Assembly: GCA_026416125.1 (NCBI GenBank)
Contig: JAOAFT010000005.1
Coordinates: 1 to 64,000 of the forward strand
Length of the DNA stretch: 64,000 nt
Direction of reading: 5' to 3'
DNA from: Bacteroidota bacterium
GTDB taxonomy: Bacteria; Bacteroidota; Ignavibacteria; UBA10030
This document shows positions 718 through 62,082 of the stretch, piece after piece. How positions within the stretch are numbered: position 1 is the stretch's first letter; each line of letters begins with the position of its first letter. The notes beneath the pieces are model-generated. The model was given only the letters and a program-made list of their open reading frames with translations. It made no database searches and was not told where the DNA came from. A program made the position numbers and the translations under genes.

Positions 718-1560
718 TTACAACGTTGTCGAAACCTTGTTCGAAGGTCCACCTGTAAGCCTTTTTGCAATCTCGAGCATACCAAACCCCATGCTTCCCT
801 TTTCTCCAAGCCCTGAGTTATATGCCAGTTTTATAAGGAGGGGATTCCCTTGTATGGTTACCGGGCATAGAAACCCACGGACTTTCGTTTCCTGTTCTGT
901 ATTCTGTTTCAATGTTACGAGTTTCGTTACGGTGTGTACACCTCCACGCTTCTCAATGTAGTTCCTATCAACCGTAACAGTAAATTCTGTATCCTCCGGC
1001 ATTTGATAATACAAATACTTATATCGTTGAAGGATATTTTTTCGCAGTGCTTGTGATAATTCCGGATCATCTGGGAGTAAGTAGCGAGCCCTCAGTGTAC
1101 CATTGACATTTTCGGGCACAGAAACCGTAAGTGGTGAGAGCATGCGGAATACCATCGTCCGTTCATACTGTGGCTCTGGTACCAATTCAACATTCTTCAC
1201 TACAATACGATACTCAGGATTCTCAATAAAGAACACTTGCGATTCGAACATCCCAAGAATGAGATGCCGTAACGTTTCCTCAATCGCAACACTTACGTAC
1301 CAATGAATAAGCGGCTCATGGAGAACAATTCTGTCTCTATCAATGTGTGCTTTTACAGGAAAAAGCTGTGAAAAGCAAAAGTACTTGAAGAACTTACGAG
1401 GTGAAATATCTCCAAGGAATGCACCACTGTGGAGCTTCGAAGCATACTCTTTCGATGATGTATACAGAAAGCGATAGAGCACTGTTGAGAGATAGTACTG
1501 GTAATTGATTGGTATTGACAATCCCTCCGAAAGAGCTCCCAATGTCAAATGAAGTCGCAT
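718..1560 (-). CDS. cas6: CRISPR-associated endoribonuclease Cas6
   Basis: A 280-residue protein, the usual Cas6 length. It starts MRLHLTL and has the early IPINYQY stretch typical of the first ferredoxin-like fold, and ends with the glycine-rich loop GLGEKGSMGFGMLEI, the hallmark of Cas6 RAMP proteins. Cas6 cuts the CRISPR precursor transcript inside each repeat to release crRNAs for the effector complex. A GTG eight codons upstream (1584) would add MIDKVGWA; I prefer the ATG at 1560 because family members begin MR.L.L at this point. No CRISPR array is visible nearby, so its substrate must be encoded beyond the left edge or elsewhere. It is likely co-transcribed with the csm1 gene downstream. 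Confidence 0.88.
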   Translation of the reverse strand: MRLHLTLGALSEGLSIPINYQYYLSTVLYRFLYTSSKEYASKLHSGAFLGDISPRKFFKYFCFSQLFPVKAHIDRDRIVLHEPLIHWYVSVAIEETLRHLILGMFESQVFFIENPEYRIVVKNVELVPEPQYERTMVFRMLSPLTVSVPENVNGTLRARYLLPDDPELSQALRKNILQRYKYLYYQMPEDTEFTVTVDRNYIEKRGGVHTVTKLVTLKQNTEQETKVRGFLCPVTIQGNPLLIKLAYNSGLGEKGSMGFGMLEIAKRLTGGPSNKVSTTL

Positions 1561-1761
1561 TGCCCACCCCACTTTATCAATCACTCGTCCTCATGAAGGT
1601 AGCGGTTTTTACTTTAGATTGCAACGATATTTTTTTTATGAAAAATTGCAAGGCCTTGTTCATGGATACTCTCCCTACCACCCTCACATGAAATATATTG
1701 AGACTTATGCCAATATTTTCACATTTTATTATTCTCGTAAATTAATTGACATTCAGAGTAC

Positions 1762-13393: not shown

Positions 13394-13900
13394 TTAGCAG
13401 AAATAACTCGCATTCGAAAATGACTGGTAACCGTTTACCAGTTGTGATATGACTCTTAGAATCTTTTGTATAACCTCTGAAATATATTGTTCCGTTTCCT
13501 TTGAAAGTTGTTCCCCGACCATTACACTACGTATTTGTACACCAACGAGGTACACTTGTGAAGGAGCATTGCCGAGTACTTTCGAAATCCCAATCACCGC
13601 AAGTAAAGGGAGTGAATGAGTAGTGCCTATTGATTTATACTTCAACTGCTGCAATGTTTCGGATGTTAAAGGAAGAATTGTACATGCCCCTGGTTCCTTC
13701 CCACACTCCATAGCATCTACGAGCACGACAATGGAGTACCCTTCCCAGAGTGTATAGAGTTTTGTTAAATCATCTTTCACATAACGCACAGTTATATATG
13801 GTAACTTAAGAGCTTCAATTCTCTTTGTTATGATAATTCCTACAGCATCATCTTGACGCAACTCATTCCCAATACCAACAACAAGTACCTTTGTAGTCAT
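13394..13900 (-). CDS. Hydrogenase maturation protease (HyaD/HycI family)
   Basis: A 168-residue protein starting MTTKVLVVGIGNELRQDDAVG, the nickel-sensing Asp region of the family; a second conserved acidic residue lies in VLVDAMECG and the His in TTHSLPLL. The enzyme checks nickel insertion and then clips the C-terminal peptide of the hydrogenase large subunit, which here would be cut after the His of DPCISCSVH. It is the last gene of the hydrogenase operon, 36 bases after the large-subunit stop. The hyp genes that build the Fe(CN)2CO centre are not in this window. Confidence 0.9.
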   Translation of the reverse strand: MTTKVLVVGIGNELRQDDAVGIIITKRIEALKLPYITVRYVKDDLTKLYTLWEGYSIVVLVDAMECGKEPGACTILPLTSETLQQLKYKSIGTTHSLPLLAVIGISKVLGNAPSQVYLVGVQIRSVMVGEQLSKETEQYISEVIQKILRVISQLVNGYQSFSNASYFC

Positions 13901-13936
13901 ACTCTCCTCGACCTCTTGTTAACGATACTATCACAG

Positions 13937-15226
13937 TTACTCATCGGTACATTCAAGCGTAACCAGGTGCACAGAACAAGAAATGCATGGATCGTAGTTC
14001 CTAATAACTTGTTCACATTGCCATTGTAATTTTTCCTGCGATATTTTTACCCGAGGGGGTATGAATTCTCGTAAATCCTGCTCCATAGATTTTTGATTCT
14101 GAGCAGTTGGCGGCACTATTTTAGCATCAACTATTTTTCCTCTCTCATCCAATCGGTAGCGGTGGTACAGAATACCACGTGGAGCTTCAGTGCATCCGTA
14201 TCCAATTCCCATGTGGGGTTCGATTGGAATTGATGGTGATATTGGTTCTTCATACGTCTTACAGATTTTGATAGCCTCTTCACATGCATAAAGCGTTTCA
14301 AGTGCACGCACAATGATGCTCTTAAATGGATTATTCGTGCCTTTTGCAATACCAACGTTTTTAGCAAGTTCCTTTACTGTAGATGTTAGTTTATCGTAGT
14401 TCAAGTTGAAACGAGCAAGGGGACCAACAAAGTATGCTCCCCGTTGTTTTATAATTGAATGCAGAGCAGTACTGTACGATACGTGTTCCTCTAAAAAGTA
14501 CTCCTCATACTCTGCTATATCGATATTGAGTCCTTTGTTAGATACAAGCCGCCCTTCGTTCATCGGATACTCGTGGTCGTGTCGTAGTGCAACAAACTCA
14601 TAGTCACGTTCGAAATCTGGAAACGGTAATTGAGCACAAAATTTAACAGCTTGAATGGCTGCGTCACGTGCCCACTCCAAAGGCTCTATGAGTGATTGAA
14701 GTTCTTTCTTCGAAGGGACTCTATAGAATCCACCTACACGAACATTGATCGGATGTATTTCTCGACCACCAACAAGGTTTACAATTTCATTCCCAATTTT
14801 TTTTAATTTCAAAGCCATCTGAACGACAGCCCCATAATCTTTCGCCATTCGTAGGGCATCCTCATACCCAAGAAAATCAGGTGCGTGGAGGAAGAATATA
14901 TGGAGTACATGGCTTTCGATCCACTCACCACAATATAACAATCGGCGAAGTGAACGGAGTTGTCCATCGATATGGGCACCGAATGCACGTTCCATTGCTT
15001 GCACTGCACTCATTTGGTACGCTATTGGACAAATGCCACAAATACGAGCAGTAATGTCTGGTGCTTCACTATAGGGTCGTCCTCGGAGAAATGCTTCAAA
15101 AAATCGAGGAGGTTCAAAGACTGTAAACTTTACCTCCTTTACTTGTGTGCCACGTATTTTAACGTGAATACCTCCTTCACCTTCAACCCGTGCAAGGTAG
15201 TCTACTTTGATTGTTCTACTTTTCAT
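13937..15226 (-). CDS. NiFe hydrogenase large (alpha) subunit, group 3b-like
   Basis: A 429-residue catalytic subunit. The two Cys pairs that hold the NiFe centre are present: [10 protein letters not shown] near residue 63 and DPCISCSVH close to the C terminus, followed by LVTLECTDE as the peptide removed on maturation. The N-terminal ARVEGEGG motif is intact. The cytoplasmic group 3b enzymes are tetramers that couple hydrogen turnover to NAD(P)H and can reduce sulfur. The frame extends to 15265, but the ATG at 15226 gives the family start [18 protein letters not shown] and overlaps the small-subunit stop by 11 bases. Confidence 0.93.
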
Positions 15227-16004
15227 GTGCTTCACTTTCTTTTCTAAATGCTTCTGAGTATGCATTAAAATTTCTGAAGAGATGAACGAGTTCTTCTCTA
15301 CTTCTTCCTTGTGCCAGGAGATATGAACTCAATGCACTTGTATTTGGAGTTTCTTTAGGGCCATAACAACCAAAACACCCACGATTATAGGATGGACAAA
15401 GTGCATTACATCCCGCTTGTGTAACAGGCCCTAAACACGGAATAGCTTGTGTAACCGCCACACACGGCACAAATCGGCGTTTACATTCAACACATACTGC
15501 ATACGTTGGAATATTCGGTTTACGTCCATTCAAATAGGCATTAATGACCTCGAGAAGATGGTACTTGTTTATTGGACAACCACGCAATTCGAAATCAACA
15601 AATACATGATCAGCGATGGGAGTCGATTTATTTAATGTTTCGATATACTTGGGGTTGGCGTACACCATGGAAACAAACTGCTTCGCATCCTTGAAGTTCC
15701 GAAGAGCTTGAATACCACCTGCTGTTGCACATGCACCAATAGTAATGAGTATCTTCGATTGCCGTCGTACTTGGTGAATTCTCTCTGCGTCATGGGGAGT
15801 TGTTATTGATCCTTCGACAAGCGAGATATCATAAGGACCTTTACTAATAGCTCGTGAAGCTTCGGCAAAGTTTGCAATTTCGATATGTTTAGCCACCCCG
15901 AGAAGTTCATCTTCACAATCAAGGAGTGACAGTTGACACCCATCGCACGATGCAAACTTCCAAACTGCAAGCTTAGGTTTTCGTTGTTTCTTACTTTTTG
16001 CCAT
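15216..16004 (-). CDS. NiFe hydrogenase small (delta) subunit
   Basis: A 262-residue electron-transfer subunit. Cluster ligands are visible in [17 protein letters not shown] (proximal 4Fe-4S), IGACATAGG, and a C-terminal group including [28 protein letters not shown] and GCFGCYGP. There is no Tat signal peptide, which fits the soluble cytoplasmic group 3 enzymes. The length matches sulfhydrogenase delta subunits. It begins 13 bases after the gamma-subunit stop and overlaps the large-subunit start. Confidence 0.92.
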
Positions 16005-16016
16005 ACATTTGTTCCA

Positions 16017-16886
16017 TTATAGTTCCCATTTAACAAGTAGGTCCTTAACTGTACTGTATGAGAAAACCGGCCCATCCTTGCATACAAAGAACGGTCCAAA
16101 CTGGCAATGACCACACAAACCAATAGCACATTTCATGTTTCGCTCAAGAGAGACGTAAATATTGTGGGCTTCAACACCACGCTTAATAAGCTCAGTTGCC
16201 GTAAAACGCATCATAACTTCCGGCCCACAGACATAAGCAACTGTATGTCGAGGATCAAATGGTGCCCGCGGGATAAGAGTCGTAACCACTCCCACATTAC
16301 CTTTCCATCCACTCATGGCACGATCAACAGTGATGTATACTTCAAGATCAAACCGTGACCGCCAATGTTCTAAATCTTGTCTGAAAAGTACATCGGCAGG
16401 TGTACGTGTTCCATACAACAAAACCACTTTTCCAAATTTTTCTCTCTGTGCAAGTACATCGTATAAAGCCGGACGGAGAGGAGCTAATCCAATTCCACCA
16501 GCAACAAAAACAACATCTTGACCAATTGCTTTCTCGATGGGCCATGGTTTTCCAAATGGGCCTCGTACACCAATAATTTCACCACGGGGTAATTTATCCA
16601 TTGCTTTTGTTACGATACCAACTGCACGAGTTGTATGCACAAGAATTCTTGGATTCAGCGGGTCACCACTAATGGAAATCGGTATTTCACCAACGCCATA
16701 TACATAGAGCATGTTGAATTGACCTGGCTGAAATTGAAACTCTTGCAAGTCCCCCGTCGGTTGAAGCTCCAGTGTAAACGTATCTTCCGTCTCCCGTTTG
16801 ACCCGTAGTATTTGAAAAGGCCAAGGAATCATAGGGTTTTGTTTGTATTCCCCTTTGATTGTCTGAAGTTTAGGATCGGTTGCCAT
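16017..16886 (-). CDS. Hydrogenase gamma subunit, FAD/NAD(P)-binding reductase with 2Fe-2S site
   Basis: A 289-residue member of the ferredoxin-NADP reductase fold. The FAD domain is N-terminal (PGQFNMLYVYGVGE, residues about 70-85), the NAD(P)-binding block is VFVAGGIGLAPLRPAL, and the C-terminal 2Fe-2S cluster ligands are in CAIGLCGHC and VCKDGPVF. It passes electrons between NAD(P)H and the small-subunit clusters. Close relatives include dihydroorotate dehydrogenase PyrK, but operon context decides for hydrogenase. An upstream ATG at 16919 is possible; I prefer 16886 (MATDPKLQT), which overlaps the preceding gene by 17 bases. Confidence 0.9.
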   Translation of the reverse strand: MATDPKLQTIKGEYKQNPMIPWPFQILRVKRETEDTFTLELQPTGDLQEFQFQPGQFNMLYVYGVGEIPISISGDPLNPRILVHTTRAVGIVTKAMDKLPRGEIIGVRGPFGKPWPIEKAIGQDVVFVAGGIGLAPLRPALYDVLAQREKFGKVVLLYGTRTPADVLFRQDLEHWRSRFDLEVYITVDRAMSGWKGNVGVVTTLIPRAPFDPRHTVAYVCGPEVMMRFTATELIKRGVEAHNIYVSLERNMKCAIGLCGHCQFGPFFVCKDGPVFSYSTVKDLLVKWEL

Positions 16887-17331
16887 AGACATCCAATAAT
16901 TGTAAACGTGTCGCTTCAAATTGTTGAACCATCACTGATGAAAAACGTTTGAGTAATTCATACCCTAAATTTTTATCAAGTTCGCATTTTGTACGAAGAC
17001 ATTTTCCATCCAAAGCAATGGCACGAGTGAGTTCAACAGCACGTGCATCAAAGTGCCATACATAGGGAGGCATTAACCATGACCACCCAATAATATCACC
17101 TTCCTGAAGTGTTTGAATTATAATTTCGCGCTGACCAGGTACTTTTAATTCAATTGCCACTTTCCCAACACGTATGAGGTAGAATTCGTTCGCTTCAGTA
17201 CCCTCTGTAAATAATTTCTGTCCTGCATCAAACCGTACATTCGAGGCGCAACCAACAATCAATTCGAGGTACTCTTGATGCAAATCCTTAAAAAATGGAT
17301 GCTCGACAAGAATTCGTTTTAAATCTTCCAT
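16870..17331 (-). CDS. Cyclic nucleotide-binding domain protein inside the hydrogenase operon
   Basis: A 153-residue protein made of a single Crp-type beta-barrel sensor domain: FTEGTEANEFYLIRVGKVAIEL and LQEGDIIGWSWL mark the usual strands. There is no helix-turn-helix after it, so it is not a DNA-binding regulator. The phosphate-binding cassette position reads GWSWLMPPYVWHFDARA, without the canonical E..xR(A/T)A, so cAMP binding is doubtful. It lies between the beta and gamma subunit genes and overlaps gamma, which suggests a role as an accessory or regulatory subunit of the enzyme. Confidence 0.8.
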   Translation of the reverse strand: MEDLKRILVEHPFFKDLHQEYLELIVGCASNVRFDAGQKLFTEGTEANEFYLIRVGKVAIELKVPGQREIIIQTLQEGDIIGWSWLMPPYVWHFDARAVELTRAIALDGKCLRTKCELDKNLGYELLKRFSSVMVQQFEATRLQLLDVYGNRS

Positions 17332-17374
17332 AGCCTATCCCCTTTCATAGAGTTCTAGTAACGGTTCTTATATT

Positions 17375-18499
17375 TTAACCTCGAATTTTTACTATTTCTT
17401 CTGTAATATCAATACCAACAGGACACCATGTAATACATCGACCACACCCTACGCACCCGAAAGTACCAAATTGATCAATCCACGTCGAAAATTTATGGAC
17501 TAGCCACTGACGATATCGTGACTTCACCGATAATCGCACTGGTCCACCATGGATGTATGAAAAATCGAGTGTAAAGCACGAATCCCATTTTCGAATACGA
17601 TCAGCTGAGGCACCAGATAGCTCAGTTACATCTTCCACAGTTGAACAGAAACACGTTGGACAAACGAGTGTACAGTTTGCACAACTCAAACACCGATTCC
17701 CAACATTATCGTATTCTGGATGTTCAAGTTGTTGTGCAAGAATATCTTTGAGTTTGGATGTCTCAACTGCTTTCCCCATCTCTTGGACAGCTTTGGTGTA
17801 AAGTTCTTGGACTTTTTGTACCCTACCATCGATCTCCTTCCCTTGTTTCAACTCTTTCAATAGTGACATCCCTCGATCACTCCCTCCTTCGAGAATAAAG
17901 TAATGCTGATTTTTTTCATATACCTCTGTAATTGCAATATCATACCCTCGTTCTGCTCTTGGACCTGTTTTCATCGAAGCACAAAAACATGTCCCCCCAG
18001 CACGCGTACAATTCACAACAATGAGAAATAAATCTTTTCTCCGTACTTGATACACAGGGTCACTATACATTCCTCCTATAAATACCATATCATGAATGTG
18101 AAGAGCAGCAAGCTCACATGGTCGCAATCCTATAAAAGCATATTTCTTCTTTCGTTCTACTTTTTCATCCACTGTACTCTCTGTACTCTTTCCTTGCCTC
18201 TGCGTCATAAATATCTTTTGAACTGAAGGAAATAAATATTGCTTAAGGGAATGTGGACCTACAGTAAAATTAAAAAGAGTCGGTGTATCGGTTTTTCGAA
18301 GACGATACACACCGTTACTCTGCTCATCAACCCATCCAATTGGTAATTGAGTAACAGATTCGACTGGTTCCAACACAATAGCATTGTCTTTTACAATCGG
18401 ACCAATAATTTTATAACCACGTACTTTTAACGCATCAAGAAGTGTATCAAAATGCTTCCGCTCGAGTAAACATGCATTCACTGTCTTCCCTTCCTTCAT
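17375..18499 (-). CDS. Hydrogenase beta subunit, 4Fe-4S ferredoxin-type
   Basis: A 374-residue subunit resembling HydB/HyhB of sulfhydrogenases and the AsrA family. Two 4Fe-4S motifs lie in the C-terminal half: CLSCANCTLVCPTCFC and CVGCGRCITWCPVG; extra Cys residues in GLRPCELAALHIHD and CTRAGGTCFC complete the family pattern. It connects the hydrogenase module to polysulfide or another electron partner. It is the first gene of the operon, with a promoter-like sequence just upstream. A single NikR half-site (GTGTTAC, 18502-18508) sits next to the ATG but has no partner half. Confidence 0.9.
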   Translation of the reverse strand: MKEGKTVNACLLERKHFDTLLDALKVRGYKIIGPIVKDNAIVLEPVESVTQLPIGWVDEQSNGVYRLRKTDTPTLFNFTVGPHSLKQYLFPSVQKIFMTQRQGKSTESTVDEKVERKKKYAFIGLRPCELAALHIHDMVFIGGMYSDPVYQVRRKDLFLIVVNCTRAGGTCFCASMKTGPRAERGYDIAITEVYEKNQHYFILEGGSDRGMSLLKELKQGKEIDGRVQKVQELYTKAVQEMGKAVETSKLKDILAQQLEHPEYDNVGNRCLSCANCTLVCPTCFCSTVEDVTELSGASADRIRKWDSCFTLDFSYIHGGPVRLSVKSRYRQWLVHKFSTWIDQFGTFGCVGCGRCITWCPVGIDITEEIVKIRG

Positions 18500-19710: not shown

Positions 19711-20109
19711 CTAGTCTTGTAGTGCAAAATCTCCACTAAATGAAAATCCTGTTAATCGACCGTTTGCATCAATACTCGCAATAACAGTTGCACCTGTATA
19801 CATTTTTGAGCTTGCTATAAAAGTAATCATTGATTGTCCAGGTGACCCTTGAATACTATATATTGCATTTTCGTTTTCTGTCATTTTCTTCGGTAACTGA
19901 AAGTTATTATATGTACCACCACCACCACCCATCGTTGTTGGGCGAATTTTGTATTGGTATGCATAGGCTGCAAGGTTGTTCAAGTCGTTAATAATCGCAT
20001 CTTTATTTGCCTGAACACTTTGCGAACTGAAAAGGCTCAACCCCACAGCAATGGCGATACCGACGATTATTACGCCAAGGATAATGAGCAATAATTGTTG
20101 TTGACCCAT
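19711..20109 (-). CDS. Short pilin-like protein with N-terminal membrane helix
   Basis: A 132-residue protein beginning MGQQQLLLIILG, with one hydrophobic helix (about residues 6-27) and then a soluble domain containing a Gly run (TTMGGGGGTYNNF). The layout (very short leader, helix at once, then a small beta-rich head) is that of type IV pilins or pseudopilins, but the canonical G-F-T-L-x-E processing site is absent. I recall similar MGQQQLLL proteins in Ignavibacteria-type genomes, usually hypothetical. It stands alone between two hairpins and has an AAGGAGATAT ribosome site, suggesting good expression. A simple membrane-anchored surface protein is the alternative. Confidence 0.6.
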   Translation of the reverse strand: MGQQQLLLIILGVIIVGIAIAVGLSLFSSQSVQANKDAIINDLNNLAAYAYQYKIRPTTMGGGGGTYNNFQLPKKMTENENAIYSIQGSPGQSMITFIASSKMYTGATVIASIDANGRLTGFSFSGDFALQD

Positions 20110-55451: not shown

Positions 55452-58400
55452 CTATCCATTATCACCAGCTAACCGTGCTATTTGAAGAAGGTAATAACGT
55501 AGTGCATTTTGCTTTTGAGCAGGAAGAACATGCTCCTCGATCTGAGCAAGACGTTCTATATCGTTCATTGCTCGCACGATGCTAACTGGGACTTCAATAT
55601 TTCCTTCCGTAAATAAACTGAGGTATTCTACAGCACCAATGAGAAAGTTCCTCATTTCATCTTCAGCACGGGCAGTGCGGAAAAACTCAATGAGTGCTGG
55701 AGATAGTTTTCGTTCTCGTACAACAGGTTGAACCCCTTCAAGTGATCGTACTGAGGAGAAGGAATATAGGGCTGTGGCCAATTCCGTAAAACTCTGGACA
55801 CGAAGATAAATTGAATCACCAATAAGATCCCAAATTTTTTCACGCCATAGACGAATTTGTTCACGTGTTGCTAAAACTCTCTTCACACAAGTGGACCATT
55901 GCTCATCGATCGATCCATCAATATCTTTCACAATCTCATCGTATGAAGTGTTAAAGATATTCTTTTGCAAGAGAACTGCTAAATCTGGGCGTACCGTTGG
56001 AAGTAAATTAGGCTCAAAATATCCATTGATAAAGAAGTCATCAACAGTAACACCATGGCGACGTATCAATTCTTGTTGTAAAAGTGGAATGTAGTATTTC
56101 ATCGCGTCATAATCTTCGCGAAGTGCAACGAACGCTGAATTTCCTGCTGGAAATGCCGGTTCAATCTTTTGAACATATACAGCATCACAATCATGGTACA
56201 AACGTAGAGTATTGAGAATATCGTACACAGGTAACTGTGGAATGATTCGTTCAGCGAGCATTGTTTCCTGTTCCGCCGGTGCGAAGGAACGAAGTGCAAA
56301 CCGATTGAGAGCTCGGAACAGTCCCGTCGTTAATTGGTTAACCCCGAGGACCATTGTTTGAGCACGATTATGCTCAATAGCTCGCAGAAGACTTCCACGT
56401 TTTGCAAAAGGAATTGTCTTGGCAATGTGCTCGAGAATTTTTTGGCCACGATCTGTTGCATCTCCAGCAACTGGTCGGTTAGTGGGCCGATCCCGGAGTT
56501 GTGGTATTAACCTTCCGATGAAGTATGAGATAGCATGAATACCAACAACATCCTCTTCTTTCCCATAGAGAATTTGTTTAAAATTTTCTGTTAACTCTGT
56601 GAGAAATGCGTTGTAGAGTTCATCGGTTGCACCACCGGTTAATCGTTCAAGTTCTTGACTTGTTCGATTCTTTTTTAGTAACCGTGTTTCAACAATACTT
56701 TCTGCAGCTCGAATAAGGTCCGAACGGTGTCGTTCTTGTGACTTTCGTACATGGTAGAGTAAGTTTGCATACTCATTGACTGGGAGTGTGCGCAATCGCT
56801 CTGAAACATTGCTTTGAAATGTACGAAGATCTCCACCGCGAAAAATTCCAAGCAACGGGGTAACTGCGTGTTGAATGCTCTTTCGCGTCGCAGGCGGGAG
56901 ATATCCACGAAATCTCTTCTCACTATCACGCGACTGTATGAAAGCAACTTCCCCTGCAACAGGTGAATAGTACCCCCCCTGTCGTTGCATGGGTTCACCG
57001 CATCCAATCTTTATACGAACTTTTTCTGTAATTCCATGATTTGCAAGCCAAACATGAAGATCGTACTTCGCTTTCATGTAAAACGCTGCAGCTGGAGCCT
57101 CACCAATTTGTTGGCTTAAGTCGGAACCAGCGATGAATATCTCACACAAGATTTCGGTAAACCGTTCTTGTGGAGTTTGTGTACTCCGTCTGCTTTGCGT
57201 TGCATAATCCCATACATGGTCAAGATATTGCCCAATATTTTTTACGGATACTACATCTTCAAACAATGGAATTGACCACACAGATGGTAACTCTGCGTCA
57301 GGATGTTCTCGTTGTGTTTGCTCTCTTCGAGCACGGAGTTTCCGTTCTAAACTTATAAGTGCTTCTGGTTTTGTCGACAAACTAATTTGGATTGCTAGCA
57401 CCATGCCAGCATTCCCATAACTTCCACAGATTGCATTAATTTCATGAATGTTATAGACAGTGGTGTCGACTGCAAACTGATCTCGAGCTGTAATCATTCC
57501 CTGTTGTATACGCGGTGTAATAACTACTCGCTGAAGTATATCCCTATATTGTATGACTTCATTAAGTAGTTCCTCGTCAAATCGGTGTTCAACAATGATA
57601 GGAATAAGAGCATGGAGTTGTTTCCTGAGCTTTTTATTTAGGACAAAGTAGTATTCGAGCATTCTTTTGCGTTGTGCTCGGAGCTCGAGCATTTTTCGTT
57701 CATATCGATCATTATGTTGCCACAGCACTTTCACCGGATCACGTCGGAGGTGGAGTTTCGTGGCTAGCGTTTTTAATGGTGTCATCGGTACTGCAAAAGG
57801 TAACACCCCACGGTACCGTAATTCAAGCTGATGGGTTAACGATGTAATCTCATCTAAGAGCTCAGTAAACCGCTCGTTCCGTTCAGAGAGATGCTCTAAT
57901 TCAAACAGTATATCACTACTTACAGGTGCTTTTGGTTCCACACGTTGAATAGAATAGAGGATGCGGGCCATTTTCCGCACATTTTCCATAACAACAGATG
58001 CTACAAGTCTGTGTCCTTGTCCTGATGGTCTGTTACTACCGTCCCAGTCACTCCAAAACGAAATGAGTGTGGGAATCTCATCGTTTGAAAATAGCTTTGC
58101 AAAACATTCTCCACGTACGAGCGTTGCATAATCGAGGAGAATTTCATCAGCTTCATCTTTAGACGAAATTGATACGTTGATCCCAATAAATTCATCGTAG
58201 AAGGACTGTGTTACTCTCTCAAGTAACTCTTGCGGTGGTTTTTGATTCTTTAGGAAAATTGAAATTACTTCATTGAGAAGTAATTCCGTTTTCAGTGAGT
58301 ACATTTGAGTTGGGTGAACTGTACGATCGTGTGTTCTAAGCCTAAAGAGTTCCCGTCGGCGTTCGAGAGAGTCCTTCATAAATTCACGATCGAGTCTTGT

Positions 58401-61070
58401 TTCTAATGAGCGTCCATTATCTTGCAAAGTTTGGCGTATGAGTTCTTCCTGTAGCAAAGCTCGATCAAGTAATTGGGTTCTGAACTGTTCTAACCGTTGT
58501 GGAAGGAAAGTACTAAGAAATTCACGATACGCTGTTTCAACGTTGTCCCCAACCAACTTTACAAAGTAATGCCCAAAGGATTTTGACGCTCCACGTTCAT
58601 AGAGATACTGTGAGAATTCTTCCCACAACCGAGATAATTCTCGTTCACGTTGTGCTTTTGAAACAGTTTTCGTAAGAGGCAAACAAATCCTGTTGTACTG
58701 TGCTGACTCATCACTGATAAGTCTATTCAAATGGATAAGGAGTGTCCGTGTTTTATAGAGGAGTGTCTCTGCGCCATCAACACCGCCTAATGTGAGACGA
58801 AATGTTGTTCGACCTGCTTCATATCCGGCTTCAGTACGAGCAAAAGTCGATAGTGGAAGCATTCCAATACCTCGTCGAGCTAAGCTCGAGGCAAGCCAGT
58901 CGAGCGATAAGCCAGAAGGCAACAATTCAATTTTGAGTAGTGGGTACATACTCCCTGTGGGAGGAATAATCGATATTTTATACGGATTCCGTTCTGCTGG
59001 GAGTTGGCGCGAAGCTTCGCACAGTGCTTCAGTCCGTTCACAGAACAATGAATTCCGAAGTCGCCAGTACGCTTCTACAGCCTCTTTACTTCCACGGTAA
59101 AATAAATAGCAGAGAAAAATGGCACTGTAGTTCGGTGTAATACGCTGAGTTATTTCTACGAACTGTCGACGCGTTGCCTCTTGCGGAATCTCAACAACAG
59201 CAAGTCTTGCACCAGCAAGACAATCAGTCTTCGACATGGAGTGTACTGTAATAACGGACTGTGCCTGAGCACTTGTACATTCACCGCGTTGGACTAACTC
59301 GTGAGCAATTTCACGAACTGTTTTTATATGTGGCAATTCGCGTACCGGCGCCACATTTTGGTAGGATAAATCGTCAATGACAGTGATTCCATGTGTTAAG
59401 CAGTACGATACAAGTTTTCGAATTTGATGTTCACTGAAAATCCTCCCAGTTGCATTGTGTGGATTGTTGATAACAAGTGCACCATACAATGGCCAAGATG
59501 GATATTCACGACATAATGCTTCAATCTTTTCAATAATCCCTTCTGCATCGAGTTCATACTCTGACGTGAGTGGCACAGCATGAACAACAGGAAAACATTG
59601 TTCGTACGACCAACTCAAATCAGGAATAACAACCTCCCGTATCCCACAGTGAAAACCAAGAACTCCAAGGGCAGTACGCGACGATCCACTCACAATTGTA
59701 CAGGCACGTGGATCATACTGTGGTTGATGCTTAAGAAATACCGCCAAGAAACTCCGTTGAAGAGTATTGAGCCACTCATCATTCTCGATATTGGTAAAGA
59801 ATTGTTCGAGTAGTGTGTACACATCGAGTGAACCAAACTCATCGAGGTATGAAGTACTCCATTTCTTTGTAAGGTATGTGGTGAATCGCTCAGTTTTTAT
59901 TGCTATTTTCCCAATGTATGTGTCAAGAAACTCTGCGTATGAGTCTACAGCTGTTGTAATCGCTCTTTCGATGCTTTTCAGATTTGCTTCGAACGATTCA
60001 CTTACATATGAAGAGTGTGTAAATCCTTCGAAAACTGGTACCACAGAAAGATTGTGTGAGTCGCTGCAAGTTGGGAAGTACCGTTCTCGATATTCCAACA
60101 ATGTTATGAGTAATTCAACTTCTGCAGCAGAGGGTGTCCCCTTTAAGTTAAAGTGTACATTCTCAACAACATTCAAAAAATCAGCATTACCAAGTAGAAA
60201 TACAATAGATAGTTTTCGAAGATAGGGTGAAAAAATTCCGGGTGTAAGAAACCGCACAACGCGATGTACAAGTTTCGCTTCTCGAGCAAGCGACAAATGA
60301 TTTGGTACGTCGTTGACCTCAAGGAAAAATAGAGGATATTCAATGCTTTGAGTCCGATAATATCGACGAGTCTTTTCTGTAACACGGTCACCCAAGACGA
60401 TAAATGTTGGTTGACTCTTCTGAGATCGGCAGTATTCCTGAACGTACGCTCGTGCTTCGTCCTCGTCCTCTGGAAGGGATTGAAATATCAAGTTCGGCAA
60501 TTCTTGCAACAGTGGTGAGATGGTGTACCTATAGAGAAGTATCTGAACTGGTACATCCACCATGTACTCATTGAGTGCAAAGAAAAAAATTCGAAGCGCT
60601 TCATGGATACCTCCCGAAGCAAGAATCATTTCACGTCGTCCGGATTGTTCACCGGTATCATACTCAAGCGGCTCCTGTTGGTTCTTCAGCCAATCACAGA
60701 GTGCCTTAATTAGCGCATGTGGATTCTTTCGAGCGTACCCTCCACGAGGCATATATGGTGAACTCTTTTGGATGGTTCGCACAAGATACTCGAGCTTATG
60801 CTTTTCTTCTTTTCCCCAACCAAGATAATCTAGAATTTCATTGAGTGATTGTTCGTTTAAATCTTCCCTTTGCACATCGATACCGAGTGCAATACGGAGA
60901 AAAGTTGAAGAGAGCCGACTATCTTGTAACGGATTTCCAATGTGAAAATTAATGCGCTCTTCCGGAGCAACGGAGGATGCTGCAGTAATTTCACTAATTT
61001 CCGACACACGAGCTGATTTAACTGGCTTCAGTCGGAATGCATGATTTGTCTCATTCACGTTCTGTACCAT
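55452..61070 (-). CDS. Giant multidomain protein: degenerate aminotransferase, intact aminotransferase, PEP-carboxylase-like region
   Basis: A 1872-residue cytoplasmic protein. Residues about 38-330 look like a first aminotransferase lobe (FHIGNPLQD, ILASGGIHEALRI) with no Schiff-base Lys visible. Residues about 400-785 form a second aminotransferase domain with the key PLP residues: SGSSRTAL (461-468), Trp 487, NNPHNATG (535-542), DDLSY (566-570), Lys 614 in HSMSKTDCLAGARL and Arg 758. Residues about 800-1872 follow the order of phosphoenolpyruvate carboxylase motifs: TVHPTQ (917), SDWDGSN (1007), IPLFED (1267), GSDLSQQ (1315), GCGEPMQRQGG (1356), KRGSLLRAI (1557) and the terminal AGDNG (1868), where PEPC ends in a QNTG-type loop. 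Several catalytic residues are changed, so carboxylase activity is doubtful. No ribosome site is visible; coupling to the SPFH gene upstream (34 bases) is likely. Confidence 0.65.
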   Translation of the reverse strand: MVQNVNETNHAFRLKPVKSARVSEISEITAASSVAPEERINFHIGNPLQDSRLSSTFLRIALGIDVQREDLNEQSLNEILDYLGWGKEEKHKLEYLVRTIQKSSPYMPRGGYARKNPHALIKALCDWLKNQQEPLEYDTGEQSGRREMILASGGIHEALRIFFFALNEYMVDVPVQILLYRYTISPLLQELPNLIFQSLPEDEDEARAYVQEYCRSQKSQPTFIVLGDRVTEKTRRYYRTQSIEYPLFFLEVNDVPNHLSLAREAKLVHRVVRFLTPGIFSPYLRKLSIVFLLGNADFLNVVENVHFNLKGTPSAAEVELLITLLEYRERYFPTCSDSHNLSVVPVFEGFTHSSYVSESFEANLKSIERAITTAVDSYAEFLDTYIGKIAIKTERFTTYLTKKWSTSYLDEFGSLDVYTLLEQFFTNIENDEWLNTLQRSFLAVFLKHQPQYDPRACTIVSGSSRTALGVLGFHCGIREVVIPDLSWSYEQCFPVVHAVPLTSEYELDAEGIIEKIEALCREYPSWPLYGALVINNPHNATGRIFSEHQIRKLVSYCLTHGITVIDDLSYQNVAPVRELPHIKTVREIAHELVQRGECTSAQAQSVITVHSMSKTDCLAGARLAVVEIPQEATRRQFVEITQRITPNYSAIFLCYLFYRGSKEAVEAYWRLRNSLFCERTEALCEASRQLPAERNPYKISIIPPTGSMYPLLKIELLPSGLSLDWLASSLARRGIGMLPLSTFARTEAGYEAGRTTFRLTLGGVDGAETLLYKTRTLLIHLNRLISDESAQYNRICLPLTKTVSKAQRERELSRLWEEFSQYLYERGASKSFGHYFVKLVGDNVETAYREFLSTFLPQRLEQFRTQLLDRALLQEELIRQTLQDNGRSLETRLDREFMKDSLERRRELFRLRTHDRTVHPTQMYSLKTELLLNEVISIFLKNQKPPQELLERVTQSFYDEFIGINVSISSKDEADEILLDYATLVRGECFAKLFSNDEIPTLISFWSDWDGSNRPSGQGHRLVASVVMENVRKMARILYSIQRVEPKAPVSSDILFELEHLSERNERFTELLDEITSLTHQLELRYRGVLPFAVPMTPLKTLATKLHLRRDPVKVLWQHNDRYERKMLELRAQRKRMLEYYFVLNKKLRKQLHALIPIIVEHRFDEELLNEVIQYRDILQRVVITPRIQQGMITARDQFAVDTTVYNIHEINAICGSYGNAGMVLAIQISLSTKPEALISLERKLRARREQTQREHPDAELPSVWSIPLFEDVVSVKNIGQYLDHVWDYATQSRRSTQTPQERFTEILCEIFIAGSDLSQQIGEAPAAAFYMKAKYDLHVWLANHGITEKVRIKIGCGEPMQRQGGYYSPVAGEVAFIQSRDSEKRFRGYLPPATRKSIQHAVTPLLGIFRGGDLRTFQSNVSERLRTLPVNEYANLLYHVRKSQERHRSDLIRAAESIVETRLLKKNRTSQELERLTGGATDELYNAFLTELTENFKQILYGKEEDVVGIHAISYFIGRLIPQLRDRPTNRPVAGDATDRGQKILEHIAKTIPFAKRGSLLRAIEHNRAQTMVLGVNQLTTGLFRALNRFALRSFAPAEQETMLAERIIPQLPVYDILNTLRLYHDCDAVYVQKIEPAFPAGNSAFVALREDYDAMKYYIPLLQQELIRRHGVTVDDFFINGYFEPNLLPTVRPDLAVLLQKNIFNTSYDEIVKDIDGSIDEQWSTCVKRVLATREQIRLWREKIWDLIGDSIYLRVQSFTELATALYSFSSVRSLEGVQPVVRERKLSPALIEFFRTARAEDEMRNFLIGAVEYLSLFTEGNIEVPVSIVRAMNDIERLAQIEEHVLPAQKQNALRYYLLQIARLAGDNG

Positions 61071-61104: not shown

Positions 61105-62082
61105 TCACTTATTCATTTCTTTTTGCTGGTTTGCCTTTCCTTCAAGTGCCTTTGCAAGAAGTGTTTGGAACATCCCAAGCAATTCGGCACCACGAGAAAG
61201 TTCCTGGGGAGTCAAGGAGATAACAGTCCGAGCATTCTTTAAACTTTGACTTGCTTCTGCTAATCGTGCTGCTTGCGGTGTAAGCATCAACAATTCCGGA
61301 CTACTCTTAAGAAGTTCAAGCTCTTCGCGTTCAAATGCAAGCCGCATCCGATTTCGCTCTAACTCATCTTGTAATTGCCGTTTCGCAATCTCAGATTCTT
61401 TCTCAAGCTCTTTTGCTTTCAGTTCTGCTTTCTTTAATGCCACAGCATGCTCCATTTCTGCAATTTCTTCGTCAGCTTTCAATTTTGCCTTCGCTGCAGC
61501 TGTTCGAGCTTCATTATTGAGTTTCTCGGTTTTCTCTAAAATTCGCGCTTGTTCTTGTTGACGTAGTGCTTCAGCAATTTGCGAATCCGTGGGTTCTAGT
61601 GATTGTACAACCAAAGAAATAAGCTCTACACCAAATTTCTCTTTCGTAATCCCACTCTTCGAATTTAAATACTCAAGGAGTCCTTGTGAAGAAAGAGCAC
61701 TAATTTCTGTTCTCTCTGTGTATTCTTTAATCAATCCTTGGAGCAAAACTTGTACTTCTTCTGCGGCACGCGCAACAGCATCAGTATTCCAACCTCCAAC
61801 ACGGATAAGTGCATGTATATATTCTAATGAAGGTGCAACGGATCCAAGTATTTTAACCCGTACTCCTAAATTCCCAGCAGCTGTCGCTTCAACAGTCAAC
61901 TGAATTGGTTGTGTCGTTCGTTTTATTGGTAAACTAAAATGACGTGGATAGAAAGATGCTTTCCGAATACCAATTTTCCCATCAGTTTCATAAAGTACAA
62001 TAACTTCTGGTCTTCGTACCCGGTACTCAAAAAGGAATAGTAGTATACCACATACAACTAACACTCCAATAAGTATTTCCAT
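61105..62082 (-). CDS. SPFH/band-7-like membrane protein
   Basis: A 325-residue protein with one N-terminal membrane helix (MEILIGVLVVCGILLFLF), an SPFH-like domain (about 60-175, IQLTVEATAAGNLGVRVKIL and a following VELISLVVQSLEPT), and then a long coiled coil rich in Glu, Lys and Ala (about 185-290). This is the usual order of flotillin/stomatin-type scaffolds, though the sequence is divergent. A strong AAAGGAGGATC site precedes the ATG. It is the first gene of a unit with the giant protein, and could tether it to the membrane. Confidence 0.7.
   Translation of the reverse strand: MEILIGVLVVCGILLFLFEYRVRRPEVIVLYETDGKIGIRKASFYPRHFSLPIKRTTQPIQLTVEATAAGNLGVRVKILGSVAPSLEYIHALIRVGGWNTDAVARAAEEVQVLLQGLIKEYTERTEISALSSQGLLEYLNSKSGITKEKFGVELISLVVQSLEPTDSQIAEALRQQEQARILEKTEKLNNEARTAAAKAKLKADEEIAEMEHAVALKKAELKAKELEKESEIAKRQLQDELERNRMRLAFEREELELLKSSPELLMLTPQAARLAEASQSLKNARTVISLTPQELSRGAELLGMFQTLLAKALEGKANQQKEMNK

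Follow-up and report, generated by a model that had tools for sequence, protein, structure and literature searches.

Class I/II aminotransferases of fold type I, such as aspartate aminotransferase (AspAT), ordinarily work as dimers in which a residue of the Tyr70 type reaches the active site of the partner subunit. Serine palmitoyltransferase consists of one PLP-active and one lysine-less fold-type I subunit (LCB1/LCB2). PEP carboxylase (PEPC) is a strongly allosteric tetramer, in whose active site we take E506 and D543 (numbering of E. coli Ppc) to hold the metal, R396, R581 and R713 to hold the PEP phosphate, K546 to hold bicarbonate, and H138 and R587 to take part in carboxylation. To our knowledge, the PEPC-fold proteins described so far amount to a single enzyme that catalyses a single reaction. 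Prokaryotic SPFH proteins, which fall into 12 subfamilies, are hydrophobic near the N-terminus, oligomerize through a coiled coil and are often encoded in conserved operons (PMC2636767).

We analysed a window of 64 kb, the whole stretch of DNA considered here, in which one gene joins two aminotransferase-fold modules to a PEPC-fold module and lies downstream of a gene for an SPFH/Band-7 protein. The main features are as follows.

55452..61070, minus strand: giant open reading frame (ORF) of 1,872 residues, comprising pseudo-aminotransferase, aminotransferase and PEPC-like modules; uninterrupted frame, stop codon at 55452-55454
59871..61070, minus strand: module 1, degenerate aminotransferase fold, residues 1-400 (AF2; hhalign E 0.029; residue counts)
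60753..60755, minus strand: Y106, equivalent of AspAT Tyr70 (hhalign; 65/65 homologues)
58701..59858, minus strand: module 2, PLP-complete class I/II aminotransferase, residues 405-790 (PF00155, hhalign, Foldseek, residue counts)
59229..59231, minus strand: K614, PLP Schiff-base lysine (hhalign; 65/65 homologues)
55455..58688, minus strand: module 3, PEP-carboxylase fold, residues 795-1872 (AF2, Foldseek, hhalign)
61105..62082, minus strand: partner gene, 325 residues, with hydrophobic N-terminus, SPFH/Band-7 domain and long coiled coil, 34 bp upstream of the giant gene

The giant protein (~210 kDa) is read from 61070 down to 55452, ends in ...LAGDNG and is encoded by a single-copy gene in its own genome. 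Pfam finds only Aminotran_1_2 matches in it; the three modules were delimited with AlphaFold (AF2), Foldseek and profile tests. A fusion of aminotransferase and PEPC-like modules in 1,872 residues had been proposed in a preliminary description of this DNA, and it is real. Genome contigs of the best 80 of 112 relatives, with more found among relatives, gave 91 loci with one full-length ORF each, a number that includes some genomes met twice; their origin in many assemblies rules out an assembly chimera. The fusion also stands against a split reading of the gene in relatives, which had been named beforehand as an objection. The gene does seem split in a handful of draft assemblies (G050, G071, G158 and G443), where frameshifts or broken contigs would account for it. 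No protein of this make-up had been known to the author of the preliminary description, and in the open-access literature we found none, nor anything relevant on operons combining SPFH and aminotransferase genes. That description was right about the make-up and missed both the degenerate aminotransferase fold of residues 1-400 and the upstream SPFH gene. We have high confidence in the anatomy predicted here from sequences and models (modules, residues, operon and distribution).

The window holds other recognizable genes. Cas6 lies at its edge (718-1584, minus strand; Cas_Cas6_C, E 2.8e-29); positions 1-2500 contain no direct repeats within the window, so any CRISPR array beside Cas6 would lie outside. 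A hydrogenase operon (13394-18499, minus strand) encodes a maturation protease-like protein, [NiFe] large and small subunits, a flavin reductase-like protein, a cyclic-nucleotide-type regulator and an iron-sulfur subunit, three of these members being assigned by Pfam and the rest by eye. A 132-residue protein (19711-20109, minus strand) has a pilin-like N-terminal hydrophobic stretch and gave no match in a Pfam search.

Two aminotransferase-fold modules

Module 2 is a recognizable class I/II aminotransferase. Aminotran_1_2 (PF00155) matches residues 442-760 with E 6.4e-14 and 52.4 bits, against a gathering cut-off of 19.7, and matches all 17 of the first homologues. The module 2 profile aligned with genuine aminotransferases of related genomes at E 2.5e-21 (hhalign). 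An AF2 model of residues 1-800 (pLDDT 89, pTM 0.86) led Foldseek to fold-type I enzymes, among them ACC synthase, AspAT and LysN (best E 1.2e-15). N539, D567, Y570, S613, K614, R622 and R758 are invariant among the 65 homologues left below 85% identity; N539, D567, Y570, K614, R622 and R758 are the equivalents of Asn194, Asp222, Tyr225, Lys258, Arg266 and Arg386. K614 had been named as the Schiff-base lysine in one aminotransferase domain with a complete set of PLP-anchoring residues, and these counts (all 65/65) agree. Module 2 thus has the fold of class I/II enzymes and every PLP residue. Unlike them it lacks a Tyr70-type loop of its own, the chain carrying that loop in module 1 instead.

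Module 1 keeps an N-terminal IGNP motif and a Y-x-P-R-G-G loop and lacks the PLP lysine, with F280 at that position. In the AF2 model its strands (148-151, 175-180, 194-198, 222-226, 247-251, 271-275 and 290-293) and those of module 2 (457-461, 479-483, 495-499, 530-534, 563-568, 606-611 and 623-627) come in an identical order of strands and helices with similar spacing. The match of module 1 to the aminotransferase family profile is weak (E 0.029-0.033) and was beaten by a single shuffle in each of two sets, of 30 and 40. The alignment is collinear over 193 columns and sets PYMPRGG opposite the YAPADG loop and F280 opposite the lysine (hhalign). The glycine and proline of IGNP, Y106, G110 and G111 are invariant in the 65 homologues, and the loop is missing from module 2. 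For Y106 we assume the role of AspAT Tyr70. Because a residue of this type normally comes from the other subunit, we read modules 1 and 2 as a putative internal pseudo-dimer, paired within one chain around one active site. The arrangement recalls LCB1/LCB2, in which a PLP-active and a lysine-less partner likewise form one working unit; those are separate subunits that catalyse another reaction, whereas modules 1 and 2 belong to one chain.

The PEP-carboxylase-fold module and its active site

With an AF2 model of residues 790-1872 (pLDDT 85, pTM 0.87) as query against the PDB, PEPCs made up 50 of the 50 Foldseek matches listed (E 5.7e-12 to 6e-8; best probability 1.00). TM scores were 0.53 for archaeal-type PEPC and 0.3-0.4 for the plant and E. 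coli enzymes, with large rmsd. These low scores indicate that module 3 is likely to be rearranged extensively outside the barrel. With archaeal-type PEPC (PF14010; PDB 3odm) it has the compact barrel core in common (Foldseek TMt 0.53, E 1.5e-8), but the archaeal protein is half its size, and PF14010 has no sequence match in the genome that carries the window.

Profile comparisons pointed the same way. Against 32 real PEPCs module 3 scored 40.5; none of 40 profiles with shuffled columns exceeded 30.1, and the reversed profile gave 28.7. As the profiles were deepened, the hhalign E value against PEPCs went from 0.039 to 0.0044 to 0.0019, and the barrel segment alone gave P = 2.7e-5 (hhalign). 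The Foldseek matches and the profile score above shuffles bear out the earlier reading of about 1,070 residues, to the C-terminus, in the motif order of PEPC. A failure to match PEPC by profile or structure had been named as grounds for doubting the fusion; matches were obtained both ways. The relation escapes sequence searches of Pfam and the PDB when these are used alone. PF00311 (PEPcase) has no Pfam match in the giant protein; it reached 0.03 in one of 17 homologues, and sub-cut-off matches of 5e-4 to 8e-4 fall inside homologues of two genomes.

Genomes such as G105, G118 and G146 contain ORFs of 850-880 residues that are divergent and PEPC-like, with PF00311 matching in two pieces only (about 100-300 and 360-910). 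These proteins may be intermediate forms linking PEPC with module 3.

We compared the active site in 65 members with that of E. coli Ppc (PDB 1jqn; numbering checked). Global hhalign of module 3 with PEPC was nonsensical outside the barrel core, so HPTQ was paired with HPTE as a motif, and R1187 with R396 from the order of strands in the model.

58314..58316, minus strand: H919, equivalent of H138 (HPTQ; motif pairing, not hhalign; 65/65)
57510..57512, minus strand: R1187, equivalent of R396 (strand order in the model; 65/65)
57258..57260, minus strand: E1271, equivalent of metal ligand E506 (PLFE; hhalign; 65/65)
57120..57122, minus strand: D1317, equivalent of metal ligand D543 (GSD; hhalign; 65/65)
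57111..57113, minus strand: Q1320, replacing K546 (Gln in 65/65)
56982..57008, minus strand: residues 1355-1363, I-G-C-G-E-P-M-Q-R, replacing H579-G-R-G-G-S-x-G-R587, with R587 kept as R1363
56382..56489 (span), minus strand: R1528 and R1563 (DRPT...SLLRAI), equivalents of R699 and R713 (65/65)

Further equivalents are D1008, D1010 and G1011 in a DxDG motif (D252, D254 and G255 of Ppc) and G1872 (its last glycine), each found in 64 or 65 of the 65 members; R1363 is present in 64. Module 3 therefore has in common with E. coli Ppc (PF00311) the fold, H138, R396, E506, D543, R587, R699, R713, the DxDG motif and the C-terminal glycine. It differs in being fixed for replacements of K546 (Gln, 65/65), H579 (Leu or Met, 63), R581 (mostly Ser, 57) and G583 (Glu, 65/65), in falling under the Pfam cut-off and in its N-terminal fusion to two aminotransferase-fold modules. 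Since four positions are uniformly replaced while others are frozen across several phyla, module 3 looks less like a decaying site than like a new, selected one, altered in its reaction or its substrate.

Partner gene, distribution and inheritance

The partner shares a hydrophobic N-terminus and a coiled coil (both read by eye) and a Band-7 domain with prokaryotic SPFH proteins (PF01145); it differs from the surveyed families in forming an operon with a giant enzyme, and the text of that survey mentions neither aminotransferase nor carboxylase (PMC2636767). PF01145 matches 23 of 36 partner members (best 1.3e-9), and the window's own copy, taken alone, falls short of a match. The C-terminal motif PELLxLTPQAARLAEASQxLKNARTVVSL is strongly conserved. 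In 87 of the 91 loci the giant gene is preceded by a partner homologue in the same orientation (median gap 3 bp); among the 85 with at least 900 bp of upstream DNA, 83 have one immediately before the giant gene on its strand. Two Bryobacteraceae loci (L092 and L118) have the giant gene without an adjacent SPFH partner. We found no other conserved neighbours, the remaining large clusters being antisense ORFs of the giant gene itself.

Full-length fusions occur in Chloroflexota (Anaerolineae), Ignavibacteria/Bacteroidota, Acidobacteriota (Bryobacterales and others) and Calditrichota, with contig-cut copies in KSB1 and Caldisericaceae records, and are 42-61% identical across phyla. The tree places the window's sequence as sister of 20 Chloroflexota (SH-aLRT 100), apart from its own family. 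At least 12 changes are required to account for the Ignavibacteriota label, partly because one lineage carries mixed Ignavibacteriota, Bacteroidota and unnamed labels. This placement and the label changes make it likely, on sequence grounds, that the gene has been transferred between phyla. Its GC content (0.428, against 0.41 for the surroundings) suggests that its arrival was probably not recent. We found no viral or plasmid copies. Since records named Melioribacter contain copies, the system could be tested in a cultured lineage or close to one.

Proposed working and alternatives

In the working that we favour, the operon would produce a very large cytoplasmic enzyme together with an SPFH scaffold that is bound to the membrane and keeps the enzyme there. 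Module 2 would bind PLP on K614 in the single active site of the pseudo-dimer, with module 1 supplying the Tyr70-type loop as the second subunit does in a normal aminotransferase. Module 3 would offer a PEPC barrel with two metal ligands, the catalytic histidine and most anion-binding arginines, its bicarbonate/phosphate pocket having been rebuilt. It may carry out metal-enolate chemistry, making or breaking C-C bonds and possibly still using CO2, an assignment for which residues were equated through profile alignment, motifs and strand order rather than by superposing structures. Its substrate would be a 2-oxo acid made or consumed by the aminotransferase, with both activities of the one chain sharing that intermediate; we infer this substrate class, the sharing and the membrane attachment. 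Taken as a whole, this mechanism, in which a metal-dependent PEPC-fold site has been repurposed and works in series with an aminotransferase at the membrane, seems to us plausible, falling a little short of probable. We suggest more tentatively, and with appreciable doubt, that module 3 has a reaction new to the PEPC fold and acts with a pseudo-dimeric aminotransferase on an SPFH platform, as a bifunctional enzyme that makes or breaks amino acids and has spread between phyla as a two-gene cassette. Behind the repurposed site we rank a regulatory module 3, and then a genuine PEPC-AspAT.

Module 3 might instead be non-catalytic, binding PEP, malate, aspartate or another anion to regulate the aminotransferase, or serving mainly as an oligomer scaffold. 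Several catalytic residues are lost, PEPC itself is allosteric and the partner is a scaffold-type SPFH protein, all of which would suit such a role. However, a pure sensor would not need the metal ligands, catalytic histidine and substrate arginines that are kept in 64 or 65 of the 65 members, and we consider this reading rather unlikely.

Less likely still, and in our view improbable, is a fusion of functional PEPC and aspartate aminotransferase that turns PEP and HCO3- into oxaloacetate and then aspartate, the link that the preliminary description had thought sensible. The retained fold and residues (H138 to R713, above) speak for it, as does the genome, which is 98.65% complete and has no match to PF00311, PF14010, PF01293, PF00821 or PF02436. 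Its anaplerotic set is odd, with malic enzyme present and no detectable PEPC, archaeal PEPC, PEPCK (ATP or GTP) or pyruvate carboxylase; these absences would suit a PEPC role for the fusion and leave the earlier suggestion with partial support. Against it stand the family-wide changes at K546, which binds bicarbonate, at R581 and H579, which contribute to PEP-phosphate binding, and in the GRGG loop (G583), and malic enzyme is another possible route to C4 acids. Among 294 genomes of the class, 40 have the fusion, 67 have PEPC and nine have both, compared with 9.1 expected (Fisher p 1.0, relatedness ignored); one of them, G278, is a single contig with both the fusion and a canonical PEPC. A mutual exclusion suggested by the first 61 genomes vanished at 294, and we rejected the fusion as a replacement for canonical PEPC.

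The two-gene cassette with otherwise unconserved neighbours, patchy spread and apparent transfer between phyla could also suggest an anti-phage or conflict module. We regard this as very improbable, since PADLOC gave no match to any model, plasmid or viral copies were not found, the sequence is well conserved across phyla (42-61% identity) and the neighbours in the window are housekeeping genes. Motifs that resemble those of PEPC by chance, or an ORF created by misassembly, are scarcely credible explanations and already contradicted: the giant protein has no Pfam PEPcase match, but only PEPCs are among the Foldseek matches listed (E to 6e-12), PF00311 appears inside homologues at 5e-4 to 8e-4, the shuffle controls score lower, and 91 full-length single ORFs come from many assemblies.

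A consistently rebuilt PEPC active site joined to an aminotransferase would widen the known roles of the PEPC fold. The fusion would also give a natural case of two enzymes possibly sharing an intermediate, and one family of SPFH proteins would gain a definite candidate client.
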